From Paramacrobiotus metropolitanus (lineage: Eukaryota > Tardigrada > Eutardigrada > Parachela > Macrobiotidae): 64,000 nucleotides of DNA. The stretch is taken from the NCBI RefSeq assembly GCF_019649055.1, contig NW_026570267.1, positions 434,001 through 498,000 on the forward strand, written 5' to 3'. The notes beneath the pieces are model-generated. The model saw nothing but the letters and a program-made list of their open reading frames with translations, did not search any database and was not told where the DNA came from. The position numbers and the translations under genes were made by a program. How positions within the stretch are numbered: the first letter of the stretch is position 1; every line of letters begins with the position of its first letter. Below are positions 1,992-54,072 of this stretch, piece by piece.

Positions 1992-3904
1992 ATGCCTCGT
2001 CAGAAGCAGTCTGTTCCAGTCAGCCAGAAGGCAAAAAAAACTATCGTTCAGCCCATCCGAAGGGTCGGAGGTCCACCGATGCGCCCGTCTGCTGCAGGAA
2101 ATACCGTCCGTTTCCGTCGCGAAAACACTCCCGAGCCGAGCACAAGTGCATCGCCACCTCGAGGTCAACCGCAGTTTCGTGTTCCCGCGGTTCCGCCTTT
2201 ACGGAGCCAAAAGCAGGATGAACGCGCTAGGACCACTGGCAGCCGCCCAGCGCCAGGTTCCGGAAGGCCTCCGGTAGTGCAGAGCCAGGTTCAGGCCGCA
2301 CGTAAACATAAGGTAAATAAATCAGAGTGCAATGCGGTAATACGGGGCAAATTTGTCACGAAAATTCAAAATATTTTAACAGAAAAATACATATGCTGCG
2401 TTACGTATTCTAAGCTTAGCAATAATCATTAACAGTAAGTCCAGCCGTCCAGGTGACTGCAAAAAATATAAGATATGATACAGTTGGAAGATGCACTGTA
2501 ATGCATTCGTAAACGCGTCAAAAATTCGAAAGTGTGCTTTTGGATAACTTCTTTAACTTATGATTTTTTAATTTTACCATACGAGCACAGTCTGCCAGCG
2601 ATTCCGTTCACGGAAGTACAGTAAATTCACTGCAAATCAAGTACTTACCGTAATCGCCGATTATGTTTTACATTTCACTAAAATCGTAGGCCTAAGATAA
2701 AAAGGCTAACGAGGCAAAAATAATTGCAGAATAGCTAATTTCTACGTTATAACGAGAATAGCGAGAAGTTTCAGCTCGTACTGAGAGTTTAGAATCATGC
2801 TCTGCCAAAATTTCATAAACGATTTCCGGCTCCATAATATTATGACTATCTGTCCGTTACTGCAGTTTGCCATAGGCATTCATACACGGCGTGCGCTACG
2901 CCGGCACCGACACCGGCAGTACTTACTGGCGCCGGCACCGGCACCCATTGCGTTGTTCGACCTGATCGATTTTACCCGGCGTTTTCTTGTAGACACCGAA
3001 TCGACGCCGTCGACGACCGGGAGTACTGGCTTTGAAGGAGATCCGCTATTTGCAGGTATTTTATGTGAAGATTATTTTGGTAGTTGGTAACTGGATACAG
3101 ATAAATTCGCGCGCAAGCTTTGTTGTAACTTGTATACTTTTGCTTTCCGACAAGAACAGTTATGTGCGTGCAGTTACATAACGATAATGATTGTGCCGAT
3201 GTTTGTTGTTTTATTAACCTCAACAAGACAGACGTACATAATATGTAATTACATAATTGTATTTTTTGCCGTGAACTAGAACACCACGCACCACTTAATT
3301 CCGCGTATGTCCTTCATGCGGTTGGTCCGAGAAATCGCGCAGAAATTCATGCCGGATATCCGATTCCAGTCTAATGCTCTGGAGGCAATTCAGGTGGGTG
3401 AATGGTGGTACAGACTTGTACAACTTGGGTATATTTAAAATTTGCTGACGTTTTGCGGTTGCATGCTTCAGGAAGGCGCGGAATGCTTTTTGGTCAACCT
3501 ATTCGAAGACATTAACTTGTGCGCCGTCCATGGACGTCGCGTCACGATCATGCCGAGGGATATGACTCTAGTGCTGCGCTGTAAGTTTTTGCAAATTAAT
3601 TATAAATTAGGTAGCTGATGGGACCCTATTGAACTGGATTATAGGCGGAATAAACTGTCCGTTTAGAGCAAAATTATAACCGCACTACTGAAGTGCAGAG
3701 TACTACTATACGGATAGTATGTACAATACGTAAAAATACTATATAACGTGTTTTAAAATTTTGCAAACGTGAAATTGGGTTAGTGTGTTTTTCATGTATG
3801 TTAATAATATAATGGTGATCGGTGTTTTAGTGCGGGAGAATTATAATCAAAGTCGCCGATATCGTACGCTTGACGAACGCGGTCTGGGTGTCCGACGCAT
3901 GTGA
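1992..3904 (+). CDS. divergent histone H3 variant with long N-terminal tail (cenH3-like candidate), copy 1
   Basis: Proposed exons are 1992-2312, 2993-3055, 3280-3393, 3472-3580 and 3831-3904. All junctions are GT-AG and in phase, giving 226 aa. The first 107 residues are a basic, proline- and serine-rich tail starting MPRQKQ, unlike the ARTKQTARKS tail of canonical H3. Then come RRRRRPG, an alpha-N helix ([15 protein letters not shown]), alpha-1 ([12 protein letters not shown]), alpha-2 ([19 protein letters not shown]) and alpha-3 ([10 protein letters not shown]). The fold is clearly H3, and LCAVH keeps the H3 Cys. A further 20 residues follow the position where H3 ends, finishing GVRRM. A long divergent tail is typical of centromeric H3. 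However, loop 1 (MPDIRFQS) is the canonical H3 length and not the longer cenH3 form, so a gonad-specific or other H3 variant is also possible. The paralogue is at 32644-34018. Confidence 0.88.
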
Positions 3905-4911: not shown

Positions 4912-6489
4912 ATGTGTGGTCGTTTTGCATGGTAAGAACAGAACTGTAAAGTTGTAAACATCGTGCTTTGTTGCTTTCGTTTGTGCTTTGAAAATGCAGA
5001 ATCTTTCTTTTCGATCAGTGCGTTAGATCCTGGGGCGCTGCGACGAGCGTGTCGCTACCGAACGTCAAACGGAACCCAGAAAGAGCCTCCGCTGCTGGGC
5101 GAGTATTATCCTTCCACTAATATCGCGCCAACTAATTACAGGTAAATGCGATTTACAAAGTGCCTCGTTCTTCGCCAGTGCTCGTCGTAATTAAGATCCT
5201 TTTCTGGTAGTCCCGTCTTGGTGTCTTCGGAGCATTTTCCTGCTGTTGCGTCGGAGAGCGATGAATTCGTTATCAAACCGATGAAATTCGGATTAATTCC
5301 TTCATGGCATAAAGGTAAGTACAAATTTAGTTTGTTCGCTTACGGCAGTTTATTACGAACGATAGAGTTGGTACTTTATATCATTGTAGGCGACGATAAT
5401 CTTCCATATTCCACGATTAATTGCCGCTTGGATGGATTGCTGACCAAACGAACCTTTTCTGTTCCGCTGAAAAAAGGGAAACGCTGCGCGGTGCTCGCAG
5501 AAGGGTACGGTTTAGTACTGTTTTTGCAAAATTAGTTGCCCGTTCTACTTGCTCAGCGGGTTATATCTGTAATGTCGGCACATTTACTTCCGGAATACTT
5601 CTCGAATGCTTCCCGAGTATTATTATTTTTAACAGTTTTCTTACAGTATGTGGCTTATTTTCTTGATCCAGGTTTTATGAATGGAAAAAATTGGCTGACA
5701 AGCATAAACAACCCTATCTGATCTATCTCCCTGAAAATAAACAGTATTACGCGGAGGACAGTGCGAAAAAGAATCACGAAGATAATTTTGTTCCGTTGAA
5801 ATTTGCTGCGGTGTTCGATGAATGGCATTCCAAAGAAGTTAGTCAATGGTTCAGTCTGTTGCAGTATTAAAAATTTAAAATATTGTTTTTGGCAGCTATT
5901 TCTGAGTACATCACTTGGTACACACGAATTAATATGTTTTTGTTATTGTTTATGCCGTTGTTACTTGATGGGGATCTTTAGGGAGAGACAGTGTACAGCT
6001 ACAGTATTGTCACGACGGATGCGGCTCCTTCGTTGAAGTTTCTTCATGACCGCATGCCGGGCATTCTGCGCACGGATGACGATCTGCGCCGCTGGTTGGA
6101 CAGTAAGGATGTGTCGGCGGAAGAGGCTCTGGAATTGATCCATCCTGTGGACGATCTGGCCTTTCATGCGGTTTCGACTGCGGTGGGGAATGTGGGGTAT
6201 AAGGAAACGGACGCAACGAAGCCGATAAAGTGAGTTTTGTTACACCCTGACTGCTTATTTGCGCTTTTGCAGATTTTTTCATTTTTCTGCTTTAAATGCA
6301 TGCATATGAGATGAAAATTCAAAAATTATAGCGCTACTAACTGCGTTTGTTTTTCTCAGCGTGGCTGAAACTGGTGCCAAAAAGGATCCAAAGCCTTTAC
6401 CTAAAGGACAGAAAACGATGGAGGCGTTTTTCTCCCCCGCAAAACGATCAGTCGAGAATGAAGATACAGGATCTCGCAAAAAGCAGTAA
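4912..6489 (+). CDS. HMCES: HMCES, abasic-site DNA-protein crosslink (SRAP-domain) protein
   Basis: Seven exons (4912-4931, 5019-5141, 5211-5314, 5390-5504, 5672-5837, 5982-6229, 6360-6489) join in phase to 301 aa. The start is fixed by the catalytic MCGRF: after Met removal Cys2 is the nucleophile that forms the thiazolidine crosslink to abasic sites in single-stranded DNA. Other SRAP hallmarks are GLIPSWHKG, the active-site Asn in TINCRLD, the Glu in GFYEWKK, HDRMPGIL and the His in FHAVS. These match the family throughout. The C-terminus holds QKTMEAFF, a good PCNA-interacting (PIP) box, so the protein probably acts at replication forks. No frame break is needed. AATAAA lies at 6647-6652. 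Confidence 0.96.
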
Positions 6490-7451: not shown

Positions 7452-8429
7452 TCACACAGTGGGGATGCATGTAATTTTCCCACGACGTGAAATGGTCGCT
7501 TTCAGTTTCCTGGTCAAGCAGTAAACTGTCAACCAAGTTGAGCATCCAGTAAAAATAACGGCAGCCGACACGACCATCCATGCCGTCACCAGCACACCAG
7601 TGATGATTTCTGTTGCTTCCACTGTTGCACAACCTGTTGAGTCTATGCCACTTTTCCAGCCACAACCATACGACATACTGGAAGGCAGCAGTGTGCTAAA
7701 ACACATTAACATCGTCACCAGAAGCGGCACGTATGCATCCTGCAGGTATTCAATGACTGCAGGTAGCTGTGCCCGCTCTGTATCCGGACGCCATCGTCGA
7801 AGCTTTCTAAATATCAGCATGCACCATAGAGACATTGCCCATGCAATCAGAAACATAAGCCAATAAACTGTCCAAAGAGCCCAGCCCGTAGACCCCCGAT
7901 GTCCGTCCGTATTCGCACTGGTTTCGTTTTTCTGAAAAACCCGTAGCGGCTCTCAGCAGATACACATAATATTTTTCATTTTTGCGATATTTCATTTATT
8001 CTCCCATAGTTCACTGCAATGCATGCAGCGCATAGCTTAGCATATATGTACCGTAAGCGTTGCGTTTGCATCGACGACTGACAGATTTTGTGGTTGTTCG
8101 TTTGTCCCTGAATTTGTATATCCCACATAGACGAATTCCAGAATAAATCGCGAAGTAAACACCAAGAAATGTGCCCACAGTTGATGATAAATGACGCGAA
8201 TTCTGCCACGAATAGCATGCGCATGCCCGTACTTTGGATCATCATGGCGACAATCAGCTGAAACAGGCAGACATAATACGAGATATCGAGAAATTTAAAA
8301 CTGCTTAATTCTAGGAATGCTTTTCTAATTTTAGGAGTATAAATTACATGACAAAGATTTAGTAAGGATCGATTTACCTTTTGCAGAGCGGGTGACCTTT
8401 TCCGTGACGTTCTTTAACAGTAGATACAT
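7452..8429 (-). CDS. four-transmembrane orphan family protein, copy A
   Basis: Exons in transcription order are 8429-8378, 8257-8052 and 7931-7452, in phase, giving 245 aa. The model rests on alignment with copies B (40563-41471) and C (52817-56688), which share the same three-exon layout and phases (1 then 0). Exon 2 encodes an acidic/His-rich head and TM1 (HQLWAHFLVFTSRFILEFVY). Exon 3 begins KNE, then TM2, a basic RRWRP loop, TM3 and TM4 (GVLVTAWMVVSAAVIFTG). The exon-2 frame is a different one from the longest ORF there. The C-terminus differs from B and C. No known family was recognised. It looks like a small tetraspan membrane protein of unknown function with predicted short ends. Confidence 0.75.
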
Positions 8430-32643: not shown

Positions 32644-34018
32644 TTACATGCGCACACGATGTCGGCCTTGCTCCTCCAATGAACGATATCGGGCATCACG
32701 ACGCACTGCAAAAACAAAATCGGTCAACAACAATCCGTGTTCCCAATTAACGCCAGTCAACTAAAAAGACACACTTTGTAGTGGGTCTTTTCAGCTGACT
32801 GGCGTTACTACTTTACTAATCACATACAATCGCTTAACAATAGAAAACTGCTTCAACAACACTGATTTCGATACGTGGCTTTTGCAACCTGGACAATACG
32901 ACATCTAAGACGTGGACTCACATCGCAGAACCAGTGTCATATCCCGTGGCATGATGGTTACACGGCGGCCGTGTACAGCGCACAGGTTGACATCCTCAAA
33001 GAGGGAAATCAGAAAATGTTCGGAAGCCTCCTATAATAAGAACTGATTAATGCCTTACTCAGCTTCAAAAACCCAATACCTCTAGATCAGACGAAAAATA
33101 TACCAAGGTTTTAAGAAACTAGGCTAAAAATAGTGAAAACTACCAACCTGCAACGCCTGCAGGGCGACAGCTTGAAAGCGCAGATCTGGTGTGTGTTTGT
33201 GCGCGATTTCCCTCACCAGTCTGGCAAAGGATGAGCGTGGAATGAGTGTGTGCGTGGTGTTCTGCAGAAAACGGATATCTCGCAGCACCAGAATTCCGGG
33301 TCGACGACGCGGCTTTTTGGCCACCTAAAAGCATTCGTAAAATAAAATGATGCAGAAAACAAATGAGAAATCCATCAATAATCACGTACTGTGAGTCTGC
33401 TATTAAACTAATAAATTGTGGAAATTTCCAACAAACTAAGATTCAAATTGTCCATTCGACACCTTCAATTCGTCACTCGTAATTTTCCAAATCTAATTTT
33501 TCTTTCCATGAAACTTTACATTCCAAAATTACAGGCGAGTGATGACTCTATTCCATGAGAATTTTCACCCCAGAAAAACTAAGGACAAGCCGTCACAAGC
33601 GTCACAAGCCGTCACAAGCGCTGTTCGACACACACAAGGCTCACAATTGGCATACCTGTGCTTGTCGCTTGCCAGTGGCTTGGGTCTGCTGGACTCCCTG
33701 TCCCGGACGTGGTCGTCGACGGCTAGATTCGGGCTTCTGTACCGTTTTGACTGCCTTAACGGTATTAACTCCACGAACACGCGGAGCGCGACGATGCGGA
33801 GGTGATGGAGAACGCGACGGAGTGGAGGCAACGGGGGATTCGGATGGCGACGCAGAACGACTGCCGCTCTCACTGCCTGATGCAGACTCCTCTGCCTCTG
33901 GTGTGTCTTCGCGTCGCACGCGAGCGCTATGCCGTCCTCCTATAACACGAGGAGGAACGGTGATGCCTTTGCGTGGTGTTTTCGATAGTTTAGGCTCCTT
34001 TTGCTTCTGGCGAGGCAT
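32644..34018 (-). CDS. divergent histone H3 variant with long N-terminal tail (cenH3-like candidate), copy 2
   Basis: Exons in transcription order are 34018-33656, 33324-33148, 33030-32922 and 32705-32644, all GT-AG and in phase, giving 236 aa. The tail (121 aa) starts MPRQKQ as in copy 1, shares a VRREDTPE motif, and is rich in SP and SR repeats. Then come [17 protein letters not shown] and [14 protein letters not shown] (alpha-N), [11 protein letters not shown] (alpha-1), [15 protein letters not shown] (alpha-2) and [12 protein letters not shown] (alpha-3). The C-terminus again extends past H3, ending [15 protein letters not shown], which aligns with copy 1. Copy 1 has an extra intron after YLQ that this copy lacks. 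Usual modified lysines such as K4, K9 and K27 have no counterpart. Loop 1 (TPDLRFQA) is canonical in length. It is surely H3-fold; its role is inferred. Confidence 0.88.
32749..32806. repeat. intronic hairpin in H3-like copy 2
   Basis: Arms of about 22 bp: AACGCCAGTCAACTAAAAAG at the left and its imperfect reverse complement ending GCTGACTGGCGTT at 32785-32806. It lies within the last intron, 44 bases from the last exon. It could be a small MITE relic or a structured intron element. Confidence 0.6.
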
Positions 34019-40562: not shown

Positions 40563-41471
40563 TTATATCAGCAACTGCGCTGGGACTGCTGGCTTTATAA
40601 ATTTCTTGGTCAAACGAGACATTTTCGAGCGGCACGACTGTCCAGTGAAAAGAATCGCAACGACTAAGACGGTCCATGGTGTGATCAGCAGACCAATGAT
40701 CGGATCGGCGTCCAGGCCAGCCTTGGTTGGACACCCCGACCCGTGCAAGTATTCCTTCCAGGTGAAGACGCTCCATAGCACAGCAAACAGCAGCTCGAAG
40801 CAATTCAGTGCCATTATCACTGGAAGCGAGGGACCGGCATGAATCAGTGACAGTATAATGCCACGTAACTGCTCTTGCCCTGCGCCCGGACGCCATCGTT
40901 GCATCTCTCGTAGCGTAAAAACCTGGATTGCAGCAATCAGCCAAAACAAGGCGAGCATTATCCATATAAAAACCCACGAATGCGAGAACATCCAGTCAGG
41001 GGGCACAGTGTGCGTACTGTTGCTCTCATTTTTCTGCAGAACCATAAAACATCTGTATGTAGACTGTCACGTTAGTACTTATACGATTATATTCCTTTGC
41101 AAGTTTAAAAGTACCGGTTACCTGGGTACAATTTAAAAGCTTACCGTTGTACTGGTGTCGGTGGTCAGCGTTCCAGGATCAGTCTCAAACATTTGTAAGC
41201 TGTCCATGCAAGAGGAACACTTTCCAGGATGAATCGCACAGTGGAAAGAACGCAATTCACCCACATCTGCCGATATATGGGCGGAATTTTGCGATAAACA
41301 TATTTCTCGTTTTCCGTATAGTCGTCGCAAGTGTCAATGTCAGCTACAATTAAATTAAAGGCACAAATTTGCAGACAGACGGATATCATTATGAAGTAGT
41401 TGGCTGTGCTTATTATTTTTCTTACATTTCACAGGAGCTGTGATCATTTCACTGGATTCCTGCTCAGCCAT
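40563..41471 (-). CDS. four-transmembrane orphan family protein, copy B (frame break in exon 2)
   Basis: Exons in transcription order are 41471-41426 (MAEQESSEMITAPVK), 41343-41145 and 41033-40563. Exon 2 has an acidic head (DIDTCDDYTENEKYVYRK) and TM1 (MWVNCVLSTVRFILESV). Exon 3 starts KNESN and carries TM2 (FIWIMLALFWLIAAIQVF), a QRWRP loop, TM3, TM4 (IIGLLITPWTVLVVAILF) and the tail TKKFIKPAVPAQLLI, nearly identical in copy C. Near the end of exon 2 one base is missing relative to copy C (about 41171-41185). The TM1 frame runs into TGA, while the next frame reads LTTDTSTT up to the donor. With one base restored the length is 238 aa. It is a recent pseudogene or carries a sequence error. 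Confidence 0.72.
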
Positions 41472-46985: not shown

Positions 46986-49663
46986 ATGTTTTCTGCCAGC
47001 AAGATTTCTGATGACAGCCTGCTGGATCGTGCGCGCATCCGTAGCCAGATATCTGAGTTATCAAAAAAGCAGCAAGAACTAATCCAACAACTTCCGAGCT
47101 CCGGAAGCCCAGCGCTGACGATGGAGCTAAAGTCGATCCGAAGACATGGTATCAAGCCCGCAGCGAGCTGTACAGTTCGACAAGTAAACTGGAAGACTTG
47201 CTGGATATTGCGGAAAAAAGTACAGCATATGATTTTGCACTATTGCAGTGCAACTGATTTTAAAACGCTTATTTTCTTTACCATCTTTAATTTTCAGACG
47301 CAACCCGAGCAGTCGACAAGCGAGTGGCAGACAGCTGTGCTAGCATTGCAAGAAGCCGAAGAAACATGCCGTGTGTTGCGCATAATCCAGAGTGTATGCC
47401 GCAGACTGGAAAAATGTCAGGACGTGCTAGCGAAGAAGAAATTCGCCGAGACGGCGAACGAGCTGGTAGAACTGAAACGCCAGCTGAACGATTTGGCCCG
47501 CGAAGAACGCTACGGATTGAAGATGATCAGTGGATTAAAAGCACGTCGTATTGAGTTAAATTCCGCTCTGACGCTGGCTATTGAGCAACATTGGAAGGGC
47601 TGATTTATGTACGGTCTGGGCAGTCTGTCGAAGAAGTTGATAAAGATATTGTGGGAATTCGACTGCAGTATGCTTTGGATGATACACCGTTCGGTACGCT
47701 GCTTACCGACTTGTTGCAATCAATGAAGACTTTAAGGATTTTTGACCGTGTTATATCGGAAATGGCCACTAATCTGATGGAGTACGTTTTCCTTCCAGTA
47801 ATCAATGGTGCCACAATAAGAGGTACTCCCTTAAGCCAAAATTTTTTGTTAAATTCGTGCATTCGTATCGCTTTCATTGGACCGATTATTTCACACTGCT
47901 GATATTTAACGCTGTACTGTACAGTACTTATCCATTGTTTTGGTGTCTGTTGCATGACGTTTTTACTGTTCTGTGCATTTGTGACAGATCACAATAATGA
48001 ATAATGTTTTATTGTAATGTATGCGAGATTTTTTTAAAATGTGGAATATTGACTTTCAGTGGTCTGCGATGCCGCTGCGCAAACGCAGACCCTGTTCATT
48101 GTGCCGTGGCGTCCTTCTGCGGAACAGATGGATAGCGCCTCAATTTTGGATGAAGTATATCAGATCTTGGACTTTTTACAAACGAATCTTTTTGTATTGG
48201 GGTCATCCCTGAATCAGGATATGATTTCCGTGATCCGGAACCAGACTGGATGCAAACTGACGCAGTCCATCCGCAATGATGCGGTTGCTCTACGATTACC
48301 TACTGAATTCGAACAATTTAATGAGGTGAAATCTGATTTATGCGGAACCATCGACTCGATGCGGAAACTGACGCAGTCCATAGACGGTTATGGTTGACGA
48401 AAAAATACCGCATAAAGGAAGATATTTTGCGGATTTTGCAGCCGATGTCGATCAGGTGGTTATTTTTTCGAAGTTCTCATTCCAAACAGAACGTTTTCTG
48501 TTTGTTTGATCGTGATATATGTATTTGTTGACTCTGTATTTAGTCGATCGCTGTCGGAAATCATGGAAAGCTCTGCAAAACTTTTGCAAACCGCTCAATC
48601 CTGTGGTTTAACCAAAGTGTCCCTTCCGGCAATAAGGATGCATTTTCACTTTGGCTGGAGCTTGTGCCTTACCATTTTCAGGAACGCTTGATTACCGTAC
48701 CTGTTCTTAGTGGTGAGAATTCAAAAGTGGCATTTATTTAAGGAAGTGATTTAATTGTGTTTTTTGTTTTTTGTAGCGCTTTATTTCAGCAGCTGCATTC
48801 ATGGATCTTTGCATTTGTACATTCTTAACAGGATGATCCAGCGATCGACCATAGATCGAAGGAATATCAACATTGCACAGCATTTGCCGATTTGGTTTTG
48901 AAATTCCGAGCCAAAGCGTACGAGGTTTTAGAAGCTGCGGTTGCGAAATCGTGCAAAGATATTCAAGAAGCGATAAATGCCGGGCCGACAGCATGTAAGC
49001 AACCAAGCTATAGAATGGTTTTGGGACAATCGTAAATCATGACAAGTAGAAAGTGATGTGGATGCTATATTGAACAGAAGTTCCGTTTCGTATTTAGGGC
49101 TATCCAAAATTGCAGTTCCGAAAATTTGATGACATCTTGAACCGCTCGCATGTAAAGCGAGGACTGGATCTTGTGCAGCGGTTATCAACAGTTTGGAGTG
49201 AAATACTTCCTTTGAATCGTTTTCCTGCAAGCAACCGGAAAGTTATAGATGCCGTATTGACAGACGTGTTTAATAAACTTATAGCAGTAGAGGATATCAA
49301 TGCATCGGATTCGGCAACGTTGTGTGGTCATTTTAAGTGGATCATGTCGGAATCTGAAAAACTGCTCAAGGTAGGTCTGCGGAAATTTCGATTTGAAATG
49401 GTGGTTGTGTTGAGTTTTAGAACTCATAAATGTTAATAGATAAAAGATGCGGATGTGGTTCCTTCAAATACGTTTCGGGATGGCTGCGCTGTCTGGAAGT
49501 CATATTTGTGCTGGACGCGTCCATGTCGCAGATTATGGAACGATGGGCGGATGGTAATGGCCCGTTGGCGGAGCACCTCGCGTCGGATGAATTAAAGAAA
49601 CTGGTCCGAGCCCTTTTTGAAAATAATGATAAACGCGCCCGATTACTTGCTGTGATTCATTGA
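46986..49663 (+). pseudogene. ZW10: ZW10 kinetochore/Golgi-tethering protein homologue with multiple frame breaks
   Basis: Conserved segments in order: RARIRSQISELSKKQQELIQ (46986 on); SELYSSTSKLEDLLDIAEKS in another frame at about 47158-47220; the exon from 47298 with STSEWQTAVLALQEAEETC; LLTDLLQSMKTLRIFDRVIS up to 47822; the exon from 48060 with AQTQTLFIVPW; LWLELVPYHFQERLITVP near 48650; CTAFADLVLKFRAKAYEVLE near 48880; LSTVWSEILPLNRFPA near 49185; and the C-terminus ERWADGNGPL with LVRALFENNDKRA. All are colinear with ZW10, a subunit of the RZZ checkpoint complex and of the NRZ tether. The frame breaks at about 47090-47150, in the G run at 47597-47599, near 48390, near 48620 and near 49460. 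Either this is a decaying copy or the consensus has several indels; GT-AG introns cannot explain the breaks at 47597 and 48620. Confidence 0.8.
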
Positions 49664-52677: not shown

Positions 52678-53166
52678 CATTGTACTTATAACTAGTGCCT
52701 CGAAGGTAGATAGGTGCCGACCATCAAGGAAAAACTTCCGCGCAAGAAATTTATGGATATCGCCTTATGACCGGAAATCGTTCGAATTCACTCCTCAAAG
52801 TGGGATTACAACTTAATTATATCAATAGTTGTGCTGGCACTGCTGGCCTTATAAATTTTTTTGTTAAATCAGAAATTTTTGAGCGACATGAGAGTCCATT
52901 GCAGACGATCGTAACGGCCAAGATGGTCCATGGCGTGATAACCAGACCAATAATTGGCTCGACGGCCGGCATGGCCCCTGCCGGACATCCGTTCAAAAAC
53001 TCCTTCCAGGTTGCGACGCTCCATACCAGGGCCATTACCAGCCCGAAGCAGTTCATCATAACCGCTATACCCTCAAGCGATCGTTTGACTGCAATTAGTG
53101 ACAAGATGACCTCGCGAAATTGTGATTTTCCTTTGCCCGGACGCCACTTATGAATCTGTATTAGTA

Positions 53167-54072
53167 AAGGACATTCCAAAAATAATTTTCCCTATTTTGT
53201 ATCTCCCGGCATTAACGCATTCAGCTAATATCATCCATATTGTTACAAACGTCCTTCATTAGCAAACTGTATAAAGAAGTTATTTTGTTTAATTACAATC
53301 AAATGGGGAAGAAATACCAAAAGAAACACCAAAGGGTTTTCAAAGATTTTCACGTGATTTTCCCGGACAGTTTTTGCTACTTTTCGCAATCTTTCTGCTC
53401 ATTTTCCTTGATGCATAAAATATATTTAGGTTAAGAATTCTTTCCTCTTACAAAATAAAGTTTTGAACAAAATGTCCTATTCAAACCACTTTTCTAGAAA
53501 ATAAGAACTGCTTGGGACTAGGTGTCAAAATCAGAAAGCATCGCAGCATCCAGACGGTAAAAAACAGAAAATTTCATGAAAACATTTGCTGTTGTCGGTG
53601 GAATGCAAACTTTCTTGGTATCTGAGATGCGCACGACTGGCCATAAAATGTGCTTTTTATCGATGGGAAGTATCATGAATTTGTAAAAGCGAAACGGCTG
53701 GAATAAGGGAATTTCGGTGTCTTACGAAAGAAAAATGTTTACTTTTAATCCTGAGCTTTTCAAAATGTCCTGCCATCGCAATAATATTAAGTACTAAATT
53801 TGCAGTTGACACTTTAAGTTTTTTGTTGAAAACATTGCCAGGTCAGAAGTTGCAATAAAAAGAATAATTTTCAAAAAAGGTGCTGAAAAAAGTGCAAAAG
53901 CAGCATTCACCATTTCGTTTTTCGTTTGGCAAGTTCTTCTTCGATTCTTTTGATTCTTATTTCTTCACATAGTTTACATAATGGGTTATCCAGCAAAAAT
54001 TATACCATTTGTGTATAACCTAAAATCGCAGGGAGACAGAATAGGGAAAATTATTTTTGGAATCTCCTTTTG
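53167..54072. mobile_element. 906-bp TA-flanked non-autonomous element (Tc1/mariner-like), copy 1, inside exon 3 of copy C
   Basis: Flanked by TA at 53165-53166 and 54073-54074. The terminal inverted repeats are about 40 bp: AAGGACATTCCAAAAATAAT at the left, and the right end is the reverse complement of CAAAAGGAGATTCCAAAAAT. The interior has no transposase and matches the second copy at 56764-57672, for example in TTACAATCAAATGGGGAAGA versus GTACAATCAAATGGAAAAGA. The left tip has lost about two bases. Confidence 0.85.

Follow-up and report, generated by a model that had tools for sequence, protein, structure and literature searches.

The window, i.e. the whole stretch of DNA analysed here (64,000 nucleotides; C47:434001-498000 of the Paramacrobiotus metropolitanus assembly), contains two genes for divergent H3 histones, which are referred to as copy 1 and copy 2 (Table 1). 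The genome searched comprises 169.8 Mb in 533 contigs, labelled C1, C15, C26 and so on, and the extracted H3 or histone loci are labelled L001 onwards; all gene models were derived from sequence alone. Copy 1 runs from ATG to TGA over five exons and encodes 226 amino acids, with an intact frame and GT/AG at every junction. Copy 2 encodes 236 amino acids in an intact frame over four exons with GT/AG splice sites, and its last exon comes from the only one of the nine joins listed that has a GT donor and runs to a stop. The two H3 genes which the sequence-only reading had placed at 1992-3904 and 32644-34018 were thus found to hold in their coordinates, frames and splice sites.

Table 1. Features of the two H3 genes, of other genes in the window and of the H3 gene on contig C26 (window positions unless a contig is named)
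Feature	Position	Strand	Basis
Copy 1 exon 1: start codon and 107-aa N-terminal tail (MPRQKQ...)	1992-2312	+	open frame, donor GTAA
Copy 1 tail motif RFRRENTPE	2109-2135	+	translation; common to copy 2, six of eight set positions in C26
Copy 1 exon 2: RRRRRPG linker and alpha-N start	2993-3055	+	TAG acceptor, GTAT donor
Copy 1 exon 3: alpha-N, alpha-1, unextended loop 1, alpha-2 start	3280-3393	+	TAG acceptor, GTGG donor; alignment
Copy 1 exon 4: remainder of histone fold with shared 17-letter block	3472-3580	+	CAG acceptor, GTAA donor, phase 1
Copy 1 exon 5: 23-letter C-terminal extension and stop	3831-3904	+	acceptor TTTTAG at 3825-3830; frame
Copy 2 exon 1: start codon and 121-aa N-terminal tail	33656-34018	-	open frame, donor GTATGC
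Copy 2 tail motif RVRREDTPE	33896-33922	-	translation
Copy 2 exon 2: KPRRRPG linker, alpha-N, alpha-1, unextended loop 1, alpha-2 start	33148-33324	-	TTTTAG acceptor, GTTGGT donor
Copy 2 exon 3: remainder of histone fold	32922-33030	-	TATAG acceptor, GTGAGT donor, phase 1
Copy 2 exon 4: 18-letter C-terminal extension and stop	32644-32705	-	TTGCAG acceptor
SRAP (HMCES-like) gene, downstream of copy 1	5191-5870		
Multi-pass membrane-type frames, similar to each other	7452-7952, 40563-41066, 52817-53191	-	no Pfam match
ZW10 C-terminal domain (kinetochore/trafficking gene), between copy 2 and window end	49098-49436		PF22766, 2.1e-6
H3 gene of C26 (L004/L045), two exons	C26:418494-419990 (418494-418650, 419488-419990 with stop)		phase 1 on both sides; alternative donors possible for exon 1

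An H3-type histone fold is present in both proteins, as seen from the alignment with H3 and from the Pfam profile PF00125 (3e-29 and 102.2 bits for copy 1, 6.7e-27 and 94.6 bits for copy 2). The features by which the two genes had been paired were all found in both copies, i.e. the MPRQKQ start, RxRRE[DN]TPE in the tail, the arginine-rich RPG linker, LQNTTHxLIPR and the block of 17 letters. The final two introns also agree in place and phase, as had been claimed (LQ|E in phase 0, then LR plus one nucleotide in phase 1), and exons 2 and 3 of copy 1 (63 and 114 bases) add up to exon 2 of copy 2 (177 bases), so that copy 1 has one extra intron. The tail lengths given earlier, 107 and 121 amino acids, are equal to the coding lengths of the first exons, but the description of these tails as unrelated to canonical H3 does not stand, since MPRQKQ is similar to the beginning of H3, (M)ARTKQ; the likeness is clearer in a relative on C15, which starts with MPRTKQ. 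A search for duplicated flanks found no repeat of at least 60 bases joining the two genes. Among the other frames of the window, the three membrane-type ones resemble, by eye, dispersed paralogs.

The PF00125 search of the genome gave 64 hits, 61 of which lie inside the window or in 40 extracted loci, the hits on C90, C158 and C10 being left out of these loci; three of the 40 (L031, L034 and L037) matched no typed histone. Typing against canonical histones, together with two single-protein searches, identified two further intact members of the family, at C15:1138k (L021) and C34:419k (L028, whose last exon was not located), as well as two decayed relatives on C110 (L041, L042), which show gene turnover. 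Copy 1, copy 2 and the C15 and C34 genes form one clade with a support of 100/99 in a 19-row and in an 11-row tree. This clade bears out the suggestion of another new H3 class in the sequence-only reading.

All four family genes have the phase-0 intron at LQ|E and the phase-1 break after L[RK], the second donor of L028 being read from sequence. This intron at LQ|E occurs as well in all six other genes checked, i.e. four clustered canonical H3 genes, an H3.3-like gene on C159 and a gene on C167. Three of the four members have, at the C-terminus, an extension that contains YR-L and ends in M, that of C15 ending in SYRVLAARM. Tail similarity exceeded that of shuffled sequences for copy 1 and C15 (0 of 300 shuffles; block MPR[QT]KQ...), copy 1 and copy 2 (4 of 300; block with RxRRE[DN]TPE) and copy 2 and C34 (6 of 300), and it did not for copy 2 and C15 (55 of 300), C15 and C34 (97 of 300) or copy 1 and C34 (293 of 300). 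In the fold, all four share Y54L, K56N, R63P, P66S, the loss of Q68, D77K, the change of T107 to I or V, A114G and K122R. The alignment further showed that K56 and R63 are lost in the family and K79 in three of its four members, that the patch at 87-90 reads NALE in copy 1 and VALQ in copy 2, which is neither that of H3 nor that of H3.3 (AAIG), and that H113, R116, D123 and L126 are kept.

Copy 1 and copy 2 have 75% amino-acid identity across the 88 fold residues aligned, and 22 of the 31 comparable four-fold sites differ. LWL85 gave a dN of 0.22 and a dS of 2.0, and NG86 a dN of 0.19 with dS beyond estimation; across the six pairs of the family, NG86 returned no dS in three, LWL85 no value in one and YN00 none. 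Such identity at near-saturated synonymous sites indicates that the copies are old and under purifying selection. On these rates, the duplication is judged to be old and the proteins to be constrained by strong purifying selection on the fold.

The marks of CenH3, as given in the excerpted text of PMC4359364, are an extended loop 1 and the absence of Gln 69, Phe 85 and Thr 118. These positions were read as Q68, F84 and T107, the equation of '118' with T107 being our own assignment. In the alignment, loop 1 has the length of H3 in copy 1, copy 2 and C15 and is one residue longer in C34, and F84 is kept in all four. Q68 is lost across the family (M, A, G, A; M in copy 1 and A in copy 2), and T107, with '118' taken as this position, is I or V, the Thr of RVT being kept. 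Copies 1 and 2 therefore lack two of the marks, the loop 1 extension and the loss of F84, and this argues against the 'duplicated cenH3' of the sequence-only reading.

All four marks were found together in the H3 gene of C26 (loop 1 longer by three residues, F84W, Q68G and T107A), which is the only row of the assembly to carry them all, among the rows aligned. The sequence-only reading had named another H3 with a lengthened loop 1 at the centromeres as evidence against a centromeric pair, and the sequence half of this has been found in C26. A tryptophan at 84 is not diagnostic here, as it is also present in the C19 and C36 rows and in the C103/C251 family, where by eye Q68 is lost (KFLRI) and the loop is not lengthened. 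Lengthened loops were seen in C26, C34 and C167. The C167 gene (L019, C167:170500-172900; first exon not found) has 22 additional in-frame residues in loop 1, which might instead be a very short intron left unspliced, and is otherwise H3-like with Q68 and F84 kept. The alpha-2 start of C26, AHALLAMQ, resembles AQALLALQ of human CENP-A. Its best match among solved structures is H3.3, with no CENP-A among the best 60 of 176 matches, and its C-terminal end, RRLRKN, is without the hydrophobic end which has a role in known CenH3s. A grouping of C26 with CENP-A, Cid and Cse4 had an AU p of 0.085 in the 19-row tree, and of 0.335 without Cid in the 11-row tree. Judged by the four marks, the C26 gene is the best candidate CenH3 of the genome, and a better one than the pair.

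The kinetochore setting was explored with profile searches, which gave two matches for Ndc80 and four for SANTA, the domain of the CenH3-licensing factor KNL-2/M18BP1. The SANTA matches (C18:1505443, C375:22689, C30:1008874 and C115:397111) are more than the single gene expected. The CENP-C profile PF11699 found no match in the genome, and it matched eight of 14 controls, none of them over the cut-off; the Scm3 profile PF10384 matched neither the genome nor any control. Neither result is proof of absence. Our search of the open-access literature found no description of the H3 variants or centromeres of P. metropolitanus. For another tardigrade, Ramazzottius varieornatus, an HJURP has been reported and modelled with the CENPA and H4 of that species, going by the excerpts of PMC13001451, so that a tardigrade CenH3 is not in itself new. 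Taken together with Ndc80 and SANTA, that CENPA makes a CenH3-based centromere likely in P. metropolitanus, with C26 as its best candidate protein. The two window proteins also score slightly over the cut-off of 28.1 bits with the CENP-T histone fold PF15511 (29.2 for copy 1, 33.6 for copy 2), compared to 22.7 for canonical H3, 18.4 for human CENP-A, 21.9 for C3, 27.2 for C15 and 20.9 for C26. An identity as CENP-T was rejected because their PF00125 scores are far stronger, and we read the match as a cross-match between histone folds, yet as a small point for a kinetochore role.

The pair probably represents lineage-specific, replication-independent replacement variants of H3 and not the main centromeric H3 of the animal. 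This reading is suggested by the four-gene clade, by the identity kept at near-saturated synonymous sites, by the LQ|E intron common to the canonical H3, C159, C167, C15 and C34 genes, by F84 in all four members and a loop 1 as long as that of H3 in copy 1, copy 2 and C15, by the C26 gene with all the marks, by a tail start, MPR[QT]KQ, resembling that of H3, and by the gene turnover seen in the decayed C110 relatives. It also draws on the best solved match of copy 2, which is the primate variant H3.Y (PDB 5ay8, 1.4e-33; 3.3e-32 with the fold alone), followed by H3 and H3.3, with CENP-A not among the best 60 of 177 solved matches. H3.Y shares with copy 2 a block of 10 letters and LRR, whereas it keeps PFQRL (with Q68), T107 and the AAIG patch and has a chain of 139 residues, hence a short tail. 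Orthology with H3.Y is judged unlikely on the differences at Q68, T107 and AAIG, and the likeness convergent. H3.3 also differs from the pair in its AAIG patch. Among testis and lineage-specific H3 variants, a parallel of arrangement is offered by Oikopleura, where, in the excerpts of PMC3156773, the lineage-restricted paralogs H3t.1-3 stand beside a separate CenH3 having an extended L1 and F84 changed to W. H3t.3 differs at three tail and ten fold residues in the same source, whereas the divergence of the window pair is far greater and its tails are 107-121 aa long. Against the replacement reading stand the loss of Q68 as in CENP-A, D77K and Y54L as in human CENP-A, the tail motif and tree placement of C26 given below, the AU tests, which reject neither grouping, and the PF15511 scores.

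The pair and C26 may otherwise descend from one centromeric H3, the pair having shortened loop 1 and specialised, e.g. in one gamete or in meiosis; this we hold to be possible but doubtful. Its main argument is the motif of eight set positions in the tails of copies 1 and 2, which the C26 tail matches at six, a score reached by 5 of 5000 shuffles, though this figure is optimistic because the match was noticed before scoring. The next best of the nine tails, C15, matches at five (342 of 5000 shuffles) and the rest at two or three, and the pattern R.RRE[DN]T arose in none of 20000 shuffles of the C26 tail. An exact 5-mer common to copy 2 and C26, however, arises in 14% of shuffles, and when the whole C26 tail was compared without gaps with those of copy 1, copy 2, C15 and C34, the scores were reached by 172, 92, 51 and 132 of 300 shuffles, i.e. 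the generic comparison does not rise above shuffling. In the fold, Q68 is replaced in the family and in C26 and kept in the other five divergent assembly rows of the same alignment, but it is also lost in the C103/C251 family, and C26 is not set apart by the number of derived residues that it has in common with the family (7 of 24, as against 8 of 19 for C3 and 8 of 27 for C19). C26 moreover lacks the LQ|E intron, and its tail intron differs from that of the family. C26 is placed next to the family in the 19-row tree, with a support of only 72/59, whereas the best 11-row tree does without this grouping (lnL 0.68 lower, p 0.164). The AU test rejected a grouping of the family neither with CENP-A, Cid and Cse4 (p 0.084, 19-row tree) nor with known CenH3s (p 0.136, 11-row tree), nor with canonical H3 (p 0.23, 19-row tree). 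The additional loop residue of C34 and the four SANTA places also favour a centromeric descent, and F84 with an unextended loop 1 in both window genes speaks against it. Known CenH3s (human CENP-A, Drosophila Cid, yeast Cse4) have, like the pair, a divergent long tail and replaced Q68 and T107, except that Cse4 keeps T107, and human CENP-A also shares Y54L and D77K; they differ in loop 1 and F84, and the alpha-2 start of the pair, SNALEAIQ in copy 1 and AVALQALQ in copy 2, departs from AQALLALQ. Duplications of CenH3 have been published for Drosophila Cid (PMC8200288) and Caenorhabditis hcp-3L (PMC9577544), and in the excerpts of these sources they resemble the pair as duplicated divergent H3s, hcp-3L also in its short tail motifs common to paralogs. 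The published cases are duplicates of a recognised CenH3, unlike the window pair with its two missing marks. A more specific form, in which tardigrades have a CenH3-derived family that retained RxRRE[DN]T as a tail module of the centromeric protein, together with the Q68-free surface, and regained an H3-like loop 1, is regarded as unlikely. If true, it would mean a second, gamete- or meiosis-specific centromere chromatin beside the conventional CenH3, and the CenH3 chaperone might accept the Q68-free surface.

It is very improbable that the two genes are pseudogenes, or relics left unexpressed by an H3 radiation. The two decayed C110 relatives and several broken H3-like copies do show that H3 copies die in this genome, but the frames of the pair run unbroken through five and four exons with GT/AG sites, and their amino acids are conserved at synonymous saturation. 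We give still less credence to the pair itself being the main CenH3, with C26 something else. The pair does have some of the marks (Q68, T107 and the divergent tail) and PF15511 scores over the cut-off, and C26 has its H3.3 match and RRLRKN end; against this, C26 carries all four marks with a CENP-A-like alpha-2 start, and the pair lacks those of loop 1 and F84. The 'new H3 class' of the sequence-only reading stands for the pair, and 'duplicated cenH3' is possible but second.

If the pair are replacement variants, each protein would pair with H4, form an H3-type four-helix bundle and enter nucleosomes. This is suggested by the retained H113, R116, D123 and L126, which are residues of the H3-H3' four-helix bundle. 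The substitutions of the family and the altered 87-90 patch would presumably change the DNA contacts at the entry/exit site and at alpha-1, and likewise the surface read by the H3/H3.3 chaperones. Such variants may be deposited by a different chaperone, independently of replication and in certain chromatin only. The gonad or early embryo can be guessed as the site of use, since germline histones often have tails with much R, S and S/TP. Partners specific to the variant may be recruited by the long tail and the YR-L extension.

The family belongs to a wider set of divergent H3-like sequences, found at no fewer than 28 places in the genome. These are the family (four intact and two decayed), single sequences on C3, C26 and C167, and the groups C19/C22 (two), C36/C16/C9 (three), C43/C18/C84/C266/C95 (five), C393/C441/C250/C115 (four) and C103/C251 (five). 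The count exceeds the number of genes, as several places have stops and some of the near-identical copies located on small contigs may represent haplotype duplicates. Canonical H3, H3.3 and H3.3-like genes (L001, L008-L012) and a broken H3 copy (L018) are outside the 28. Dispersed families of H3-fold frames were seen at L003, L005-L007, L013, L015-L017, L023-L026, L029, L030, L032, L033, L039, L048 and L049; many have acidic N-tails and long C-terminal tails, several are broken and several are almost identical across contigs (haplotigs or mobile copies). At L008, L010, L011 and L012, the matches of clustered canonical H3 and H2A genes, and at L010 and L011 also those of H4, are split in two by introns; in L010, AATAAA is found 3' of H3 and H4. 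Divergent H2A-like copies (SRSRRAGAILPVGRIHQAM...) occur on two contigs (L038 and L040, on C31 and C41). The histone 3' stem-loop, looked for as a mark of replication-coupled genes, had no match in 16 sources at the gathering score, nor did seven core-histone loci give one with the E limit raised to 5; since the canonical genes are without it too, the stem-loop is uninformative on copies 1 and 2.

The C26 candidate makes the centromere type of a tardigrade directly testable. H3 is among the most conserved proteins, and here one very divergent H3 clade has been kept as at least four intact genes within a radiation of at least 28 places. These genes show which parts of H3 can vary while the protein stays under selection.
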